This document shows, piece after piece, positions 22,274 to 23,602 of a DNA stretch of 37,874 nt. The position numbers and the translations under genes are program-made. This DNA is from Phycisphaerae bacterium (lineage in GTDB: Bacteria > Planctomycetota > Phycisphaerae > Sedimentisphaerales > Anaerobacaceae). Each line of letters starts with the position of its first letter. The stretch's first letter is position 1. Under the pieces are notes generated by a model, which was not told the origin of the DNA, did not search any database, and saw nothing but the letters and a program-made list of their open reading frames with translations. The DNA lies in assembly GCA_028714255.1 (NCBI GenBank), contig JAQTMR010000020.1, positions 1 through 37,874 of the forward strand, written 5' to 3'.

Positions 22274-22429
22274 TACTCTGCCCTAAAAGATTTTGTTGCG
22301 AAAAACAGAGTTTGAAAAGTGTGAAAAGTGCGAAGGTGTGAAAAGTGCGAAGGTGTGAAAAGAAAGTAAGATAAGGTATGAAAGGTGAGAAGGGTGGGAA
22401 AAGTGGGAAAAGTGTGAAAGGTGAGAGAA
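22274..22429 (+). repeat. Tandem repeat tract upstream of the four-helix-bundle gene
   Basis: A 17-bp unit GTGTGAAAAGTGCGAAG is repeated exactly twice and begun a third time (22319-22362), then decays into related GGTGAGAAGGG/GTGGGAAAAGTG text up to the start codon. Bases 22314-22341 also form the left arm of an inverted repeat whose right arm is at 22933-22961. Confidence 0.75.
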
Positions 22430-22915
22430 ATGGGGAAAGCAGCAGAGTCGTTTGAGGATTTGTATATTTATCAGCGAGCCAGAGAATTAGCCAACGCTGT
22501 ATATAAAATCACAAAGAAAAATGGTTTTTCACGTGATTTCGGGCTCGTTGACCAAATTCGCAGAGCTGCGGTTTCTGTTCTTTCCAATATCGCTGAAGGA
22601 TTCGAACGAGGAAGTAAAACCGAATTTATTCAATTCCTTTACATTGCCAAGGGCTCCTGCGGGGAAGTAAGGGCACAACTCCAAATCGCACAGGACCAGA
22701 GCTATCTCCAACAAGACGAATACCAGGGACTTTATGACCTTTGCAAACAGATTAATGGAATGATATCAAATTTTATCGCCCACCTTCAGAAAACCGATTA
22801 TCAGGGTGAAAAGGTTAACCGACCTAAGCGGTTAGCTCTACAGAAGGATAAGCAACGGATGGACAAATTTTTCGCTTCTCACGGAATCAAGCTGCCGGAT
22901 TACGACCAACAGTAA
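22430..22915 (+). CDS. Four-helix-bundle protein (S23/IVP family)
   Basis: 161 residues from the ATG at 22430; a GTG at 22421 is an alternative start. The family signature is clear: FEDLYIYQRARELANAVYKIT, DQIRRAAVSVLSNIAEGFERGSKTEFIQFLYIAKGSCGEVRAQLQIA, then a helix with LYDLCKQINGMISNFI. Members form small oligomers; relatives are encoded within intervening sequences of 23S rRNA and as accessory proteins (Avd) of diversity-generating retroelements, and bind nucleic acid. No reverse transcriptase or rRNA is present here. The gene lies between matching inverted-repeat arms (22314-22341 and 22933-22961). The C-terminal 40 residues are a lysine-rich extension. Confidence 0.88.
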   Translation: MGKAAESFEDLYIYQRARELANAVYKITKKNGFSRDFGLVDQIRRAAVSVLSNIAEGFERGSKTEFIQFLYIAKGSCGEVRAQLQIAQDQSYLQQDEYQGLYDLCKQINGMISNFIAHLQKTDYQGEKVNRPKRLALQKDKQRMDKFFASHGIKLPDYDQQ

Positions 22916-23227
22916 GTTCAATAATAGTACATTCACACTTTTCGCACTGTTCGTACTTTTCTAACCTCTGATTCTCCCAAACACAAGCCGGAAGTTTTTA
23001 ATTTGAAAGCCCTCGCGGCGCTTGAGCGGAATTTAATCAAAACTGCGGTTACCTGCACCTAAAAATGGACTTAACCTATTATAACACAAATGATTACAGC
23101 GATAAATTGCCCTTTTTTGCGAGGGGAAAACGAACCCAATCAAAGCCAAATTGGAAGGTACACCTGCTCGGGGCGAGGGGCCGATATTTTATTTATTTTT
23201 GTTGTATTTTAAGGTCAAAATGATATA
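22916..23227. other. Intergenic region between the four-helix-bundle gene and cspA-like gene
   Basis: 312 bp without a believable gene. It contains the right arm of the inverted repeat (22933-22961), a minus-strand copy of the TTGGGTTCGTTTT repeat (23127-23139) that also occurs three times after feoB, and at its right end the cold-shock gene's promoter. Confidence 0.6.
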
Positions 23228-23229
23228 AT
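23202..23229 (+). promoter_or_regulatory. Predicted promoter of the cold-shock gene
   Basis: TTGTAT (23202-23207), a 16-bp spacer and a consensus TATAAT (23224-23229). Transcription would start near 23236, giving a leader of about 100 nt. Confidence 0.6.
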
Positions 23230-23231
23230 GC

Positions 23232-23332
23232 CGAACCTTAATGGGGCTATTCTTAAACGTCTCTCAGGAATGGCCCCAAAAAAAGGTTCGAGAGACAAAT
23301 TTTACGGCCCATTAAAAGGGCCAATAAAGGAG
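23232..23332 (+). promoter_or_regulatory. Structured 5' leader of the cold-shock mRNA
   Basis: Several exact pairings can be read. CGAACCTT (23232-23239) pairs with AAGGTTCG (23283-23290) and encloses GGGGC (23243-23247)/GCCCC (23273-23277). GTCTCTC in the inner loop (23259-23265) is complementary to GAGAGAC (23290-23296) just outside the stem, allowing a pseudoknot or an alternative fold. A third hairpin GGCCC/GGGCC (23306-23322) ends 4 bases before the ribosome binding site AAGGAG (23327-23332). Confidence 0.6.
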
Positions 23333-23338
23333 ATTATT

Positions 23339-23542
23339 GTGGGTACAGGTACAGTAAAATGGTTCAATGGTAAAAAAGGTTTTGGATTTATAAGTCCTGA
23401 TGACGGCGGCGAAGATTTGTTCGTTCACCACTCTGAAATCAAGACGAACGGCTACGCCAATCTCGAAGAAGGCCAGAAGGTCCAGTTCGAGGTAGGTCAG
23501 GGCAAAAAAGGCCCCTGCGCTACAAACGTAGTTCCTGCATAG
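23339..23542 (+). CDS. Cold-shock protein, CspA family
   Basis: 67 residues from a GTG at 23339, six bases after AAGGAG. The open frame continues upstream to an ATG at 23228, but that ATG overlaps the predicted -10 box and the extra 37 residues match nothing in the family, so the short form is chosen. The single OB-fold domain starts [32 protein letters not shown], with both RNA-binding motifs (KGFGFI and LFVHH) intact. It binds single-stranded RNA/DNA as an RNA chaperone. Monocistronic, with its own promoter, structured leader and terminator. Confidence 0.95.
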
Positions 23543-23566
23543 TTCAAAGCAAGAAACCTGAAAGCC

Positions 23567-23602
23567 AATGGGCTTCGCAAAAAGCGGAGCCCATTTCATT
23601 TT
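23567..23602 (+). terminator. Intrinsic terminator of the cold-shock gene
   Basis: AATGGGCTTCGC (23567-23578) and GCGGAGCCCATT (23584-23595) form a long stem around AAAAA, followed by TCATTTT. It starts 24 nt after the stop codon. Confidence 0.7.

Follow-up and report, generated by a model that had tools for sequence, protein, structure and literature searches.

What is the RNA that precedes the cold-shock gene in this stretch of DNA, and how might it act on that gene? In the window (the whole stretch analyzed, 37,874 nt), the leader of a gene for a CSD protein was described in an initial annotation as capable of pseudoknot formation, with three exact pairings and a further hairpin before the ribosome-binding site. 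All of these can be read in the window sequence, and base 23290 is indeed common to the outer stem and the GTCTCTC/GAGAGAC pairing. Reading of the sequence together with a computed fold showed that positions 23243 to 23296 form an H-type pseudoknot with a stem S1 of 11 bp, a loop L1 of 5 nt, a stem S2 of 7 bp, a single base separating S2 from S1, and an A-rich loop L3 of 12 nt. The features are as follows.

23224 to 23229, plus strand: -10 box TATAAT, a perfect hexamer; predicted start at about 23236, giving a leader of about 103 nt (to 23338).
23232 to 23239, plus strand: 5' strand of the outer stem, pairing with 23283 to 23290; at chance level in relatives and not a conserved part.
23243 to 23253, plus strand: 5' strand of S1, 11 bp with 12 to 13 possible (fold and alignment).
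23254 to 23258, plus strand: loop L1 (sequence reading and relatives' leaders).
23259 to 23265, plus strand: 5' strand of S2, GUCUCUC, which is the pseudoknot loop strand and a candidate Csp-binding sequence (alignment; CspB consensus as given in excerpts of PMC7825780).
23267 to 23277, plus strand: 3' strand of S1 (fold and alignment).
23278 to 23289, plus strand: loop L3, A-rich, crossing S1 (sequence reading and relatives' leaders).
23290 to 23296, plus strand: 3' strand of S2, GAGAGAC (alignment and covariation).
23306 to 23322, plus strand: P3 hairpin GGCCC/GGGCC, directly 5' of the ribosome-binding site (90.3% of cells paired in 73 leaders).
23327 to 23332, plus strand: Shine-Dalgarno sequence AAGGAG, read in the window and nearly invariant across the aligned leaders.
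23339 to 23542, plus strand: CSD protein of 67 aa with a GTG start (PF00313, E 9.4e-30).
23567 to 23595, plus strand: terminator-like hairpin 3' of the CSD gene (window scan).

The outer stem consists of CGAACCTT (23232 to 23239) and AAGGTTCG (23283 to 23290) and comprises 8 bp. The inner stem, GGGGC (23243 to 23247) with GCCCC (23273 to 23277), is present, but the 5 bp first assigned to it are only the start of the longer S1. This stem has 11 bp (23243 to 23253 with 23267 to 23277), including two G-U pairs, and reaches 13 bp in the minimum-energy fold. The minimum-energy fold was more stable than those of shuffled sequences (z -4.76; 0 of 200 as stable). The downstream hairpin, GGCCC (23306 to 23310) with GGGCC (23318 to 23322), lies 5' of the Shine-Dalgarno sequence, after which the GTG follows. 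A gene of the 23S_rRNA_IVP four-helix family (PF05635, E 2.2e-38) is located directly upstream, at 22421 to 22915.

A protein search yielded 80 csp loci, and nearly all of their upstream regions showed the same plan. Across leaders, S2 has 6 to 7 bp and S1 11 to 13 bp, and a GGCC hairpin adjoining an open Shine-Dalgarno sequence follows. Alignment A1 contains 73 of the 80 distinct csp leaders (L019, L053, L083, L089, and three of L097 were left out). In it, 94.9% of the S2 cells, 83.7% of the S1 cells, and 90.3% of the hairpin cells were paired; the entire structure was 88.7% paired, compared with 37.8 to 58.1% in slid versions. To test the pseudoknot on alignments that had not been fitted to it, we built a covariance model, R1, which contains S1 and the hairpin but no pseudoknot pairs. 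R1 matched 107 leaders over 100 loci. In the R1 alignment of these leaders, S2 was 96.5% paired (38.8 to 76.6% in slid versions). Double-sided changes at S2 were found in 58 cells versus 17.8 (standard deviation, 5.7) in shuffles, and five of the seven pairs changed on both sides.

Helix by helix counts were made on 101 leaders, omitting the spurious matches L109 and L110 as well as L024, L053, and L085, which have no letters in the helix; in these last three, the loop strand is absent or partly lost. The six inner S2 pairs were all formed in 99 leaders and all seven pairs in 78. On a parsimony tree built without the S2 columns, the six inner pairs underwent 15 double changes and 23 single changes compatible with pairing, as well as 2 that disrupt a pair, and the terminal pair showed 7 double changes and 15 events to a non-pair. 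R1 did not match L083, L089, L087 (a MAG bearing the label Nitrosomonas), or three Betaproteobacteria. For three Betaproteobacterial leaders, the rule used gave no start codon. The gene pattern missed 14 further csp loci, 13 of which were later matched by R1. A loose pseudoknot descriptor proved useless, since 295 of 450 shuffled regions passed it along with 140 of 150 real csp upstream regions, and the evidence was therefore taken from the aligned covariation instead.

Thus, the pseudoknot is conserved with compensating changes, well beyond chance. Covariation in related leaders had been named beforehand as a check on the pseudoknot-capable leader, and the paired changes support it. The occurrence of G-U pairs on the csp-sense strand argues for selection acting on the csp RNA and not on the DNA. 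Established by covariation, the RNA element is almost certainly real. Since the knot is kept with matching paired mutations 5' of cold-shock genes, sequence comparison indicates that csp mRNAs carry a conserved cis-regulatory RNA at their 5' end.

Next, we considered how widely the element occurs and which genes it accompanies. R1 detected it in at least 138 of 161 Sedimentisphaerales genomes, including 61 of 66 of good quality, with 1 to 6 copies each. No R1 match was found in 23 of the 161 genomes among the 23 candidates scored per genome, a limit which makes the order count a lower bound. In a phylum-wide sample, 9 of 392 genomes were matched; seven lie within Sedimentisphaerales, and the two matches outside the order (L109 and L110) were rejected as spurious, having no CSD gene after them. 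A CSD gene is located downstream of 103 of the 107 R1 matches; of the other four, one runs into a contig end and one into a masked stretch, and two are the spurious matches. For 30 further loci of the order, a script found a CSD gene downstream in 26. At L115 and L129, the DNA inspected by eye also runs into a csp gene, L119 carries the same leader as L018, and L120 stops at a contig end. By these counts, the element is tied near-exclusively to CSD genes.

The genome of the window has four CSD genes, three of them with the pseudoknot leader. Their loop strands and partners are GTCTCTC/GAGAGAC, GCCTCTC/GAGGGGC, and ACCTCTC/GAGGGGT, thus representing compensated paralogues. The leader is absent from the fourth gene (L178, C17:24974), which encodes a longer CSD protein in an open frame of 139 aa, follows an HU-like gene, and may serve as a natural internal control. 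Two weak matches in the same genome, L101 and L102, were rejected because no CSD gene lies downstream. Tandem csp genes (two to three), each with its own pseudoknot leader, were observed at L021, L012, L032, L041, L047, and L097/L145.

Locus L097, titled Candidatus Zixiibacteriota, led to a second phylum. There, R1 matched 12 leaders, at 10 of 30 csp loci, with E values of 0.003 or better. S2 was 97.2% paired in these 12 leaders, which have CCCUC/GAGGG cores, and a covarying pair beside the core is GC in 5, AU in 4, and GU in 2 of the 12. Two of five measures were unremarkable in comparison with shuffles, being reached by 60 and 156 of 500. In the second phylum, the element may have been inherited from a common ancestor, transferred along with the gene, or evolved convergently.

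Other csp leaders looked different. At L154 to L157, L169, L171, and L174, which belong to the sample from the second phylum, the csp gene lacks the pseudoknot and has another conserved leader (GGCC..GGCCAACGGA), possibly a structured element. The csp leaders of L159, L162, L165, L167, and L168 contain a hairpin, a T-run, and then a GAAAGGTGGTGA-like ribosome site (GGAAAGGAGGTGA in L162), suggesting attenuation.

Where does the transcript begin? Of 101 leaders, 82 have a TATAAT-like hexamer (at least 5 of 6 positions) upstream. Its distance to the loop strand is 24 to 27 nt in 44 of these, versus 28 of 197 control stretches, and 29 nt in the window. The -10 box of the window was not listed by a strict two-hexamer promoter scan. 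The set distance of the -10 boxes places the mRNA 5' end at the foot of S1, and the outer stem would then lie mostly upstream of the transcript or be trimmed. The perfect -10 box agrees with the start predicted earlier near 23236, which leaves 4 to 5 of the 8 outer pairs. Starting from 23236, the residual outer stem has a stacking energy of -6.8 kcal/mol, versus -13.6 for S2 at 37 °C. In relatives, a run of at least 7 outer pairs is found in 14 of 101 leaders versus about 14.6% of shuffled flanks. With complementary runs at chance level, the 8-bp outer stem was ruled out as a conserved switch partner. Of the two possibilities raised in the initial annotation, a pseudoknot or competition with the outer stem, covariation therefore upholds the former, and the conserved outer-stem switch is dropped.

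A structure at the very 5' end could simply act as a stabilizer: the pseudoknot would block 5'-dependent decay and give an abundant, constitutive csp mRNA with no switch. The -10 box at a fixed distance, placing the 5' end at S1, fits this explanation, and so does the Staphylococcus aureus cspA mRNA, which is stabilized by a 5' hairpin according to excerpts of PMC3386247. A plain hairpin would be enough for this purpose, however, and the S2 pairing and the sequence conservation across two phyla would be left unexplained. We regard a stabilizer without a switch as rather doubtful.

The link to csp genes also brings to mind a strict RNA thermosensor, in which temperature alone would shift the leader between the pseudoknot (cold) and an open or refolded state (warm), with a change in ribosome access. 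Precedent exists in the Escherichia coli cspA mRNA, which switches structure with temperature and thereby alters ribosome access (PMC9947658 and PMC7858274, both in excerpt). Consistent with such a shift, S2 stacking weakens from -18.5 at 10 °C to -13.6 at 37 °C. However, nearest-neighbour sums predict that S2 remains favourable throughout the range of 5 to 55 °C if a loop cost of 7 to 9 kcal/mol is applied, a value that is our own assumption in a rough energy estimate. Moreover, in a fold of 23236 to 23420, the Shine-Dalgarno sequence was 77 to 87% unpaired at both 10 and 37 °C, and neither a conserved fold hiding it nor a conserved alternative fold was found. On these numbers, with S2 stable and the Shine-Dalgarno sequence mostly open, a pure thermosensor becomes less likely, and we consider it unlikely. 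In the same fold, which runs into the coding sequence, the GTG start (23339 to 23341) was just 4 to 15% unpaired; translation may thus be influenced by base pairing of the start region with the coding sequence.

Could the leader bind something other than the CSD protein? A metabolite riboswitch built on an H-type pseudoknot would also be compact and located 5' of the ribosome-binding site. However, the conserved letters lie mostly in helices and the loops L1 and L3 differ among leaders in both length and sequence, so that no ligand pocket is evident, and the downstream gene encodes a nucleic-acid-binding protein rather than an enzyme or transporter. Neither a conserved unpaired core nor a metabolic gene was found, the loops being variable and the downstream gene a CSD gene in 103 of 107 cases, and a riboswitch is highly improbable. 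Another trans factor, such as a ribosomal protein, RNase III, or S1, would have a potential site in the long S1, which resembles RNase III substrates; excerpts of PMC3386247 describe the S. aureus cspA leader as a target of RNase III processing. Against this, S1 in relatives is interrupted by mismatches (83.7% paired), and we assign such a factor a low probability.

The link to csp genes alone and the fixed chemistry of S2 led us to propose a competition for the loop strand, in which Csp is the rival of its pairing partner GAGAGAC. Positions 2 to 7 of the S2 5' strand are pyrimidines in 97 to 101 of 101 leaders. CSD proteins bind pyrimidine-rich single strands with limited sequence selectivity, and for Bacillus subtilis CspB the consensus is GTCTTT[GC], with GUCUUUA in an RNA co-crystal (PMC7825780, excerpts). 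The loop strand in the window agrees at 6 of 7 positions with this consensus, which comes from Bacillus. Among the 101 loop strands, 48 match the Bacillus consensus at 6 to 7 of 7 positions; 20 match it at only 3 to 4, which counts against feedback, as does the frequent breakage of the terminal S2 pair (15 non-pair events). Furthermore, C-to-U and G-to-A changes via G-U pairs alone could suffice for the pyrimidine bias.

Csp feedback through the pyrimidine loop strand is the mechanism we favour, tentatively and at somewhat less than even probability. The pseudoknot would shield the mRNA 5' end and keep the csp mRNA translatable. CSD protein in excess would capture the GUCUCUC loop strand, the pseudoknot would open, and the protein's own expression would fall. 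In the cold, Csp would be drawn to other structured RNAs, allowing the pseudoknot to refold and csp expression to rise. Weak pairing of the released CUCUC strand with the Shine-Dalgarno sequence would also be possible (-4.8 versus -9.5 kcal/mol for S2 at 37 °C). The direction of the control exerted by Csp on csp mRNA is conjecture, and its sign is opposite to that in E. coli, where CspA enhances translation of the mRNA that encodes it (PMC9947658, excerpts). It is possible, with about one chance in three by our estimate, that this RNA class of two phyla lets an RNA chaperone gauge how much of it is free, its preferred single-stranded RNA being built in as a pseudoknot strand. If true, the leader RNA would report chaperone activity rather than temperature. 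One short RNA, its paired mutants, and one purified 67-aa protein would make it testable how a cell detects its demand for RNA chaperones, a long-standing question.

We also compared the leader with known RNA families. At gathering scores, Rfam release 15 gave no match over the whole window, and matches of the leader to microRNA and snoRNA families were dismissed as chance. The cspA family RF01766 (gathering cut-off, 78 bits) scored 75.9 on L001 and 80.2 on a trimmed leader with a coding stretch. The coding sequence alone (23339 to 23598) reached 84.6 bits, and the leader alone failed, with 11.6 bits (E 0.39) and no match to the UTR fold of the family. When leader and coding sequence were aligned to RF01766, the leader stems mismatched and 71 nt including the pseudoknot were skipped as an insert. 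The match on cut stretches is therefore due to the coding sequence. On these scores, membership of the leader in the cspA leader family is not supported, in line with the earlier suggestion that it is independent of E. coli cspA; it may still work alike. As RF01766 can be passed on coding sequence alone, such matches may wrongly label csp genes as cspA thermoregulators. The motif was not found in the titles and abstracts retrieved from the open-licence literature, a search that most subscription papers fall outside. The leader may represent a structured RNA class without an Rfam model.

The csp leader structures known so far come mainly from E. coli and Gram-positive models. Here, a distinct and well-defined csp leader fold was found almost throughout one order and also in another phylum; it includes a candidate site for the gene's own product. 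Its hairpin loop pairs outside the hairpin, with compensating changes, as is characteristic of H-type pseudoknots. Frameshift pseudoknots of the IBV type are built like that of the window, with an S1 of about 11 bp, an S2 of 6 to 7 bp, a short L1, and a longer L3. Unlike them, the window pseudoknot is non-coding, is located 5' of a ribosome-binding site, and is not at a frameshift site. With the E. coli cspA thermosensor it shares a structured 5' leader of a CSD gene that presumably tunes expression in the cold; in contrast to E. coli cspA, no fold hiding the Shine-Dalgarno sequence was seen in the window leader. In S. aureus, cspA carries a 5' hairpin that stabilizes the mRNA in a leader targeted by RNase III (PMC3386247, excerpts). 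That leader is an almost perfect 32-bp helix for which those excerpts report no pseudoknot, whereas a pseudoknot is present here. Common to both are a 5'-terminal structure and a similar 5' UTR, of 113 nt in S. aureus (same excerpts) and about 103 nt in the window.
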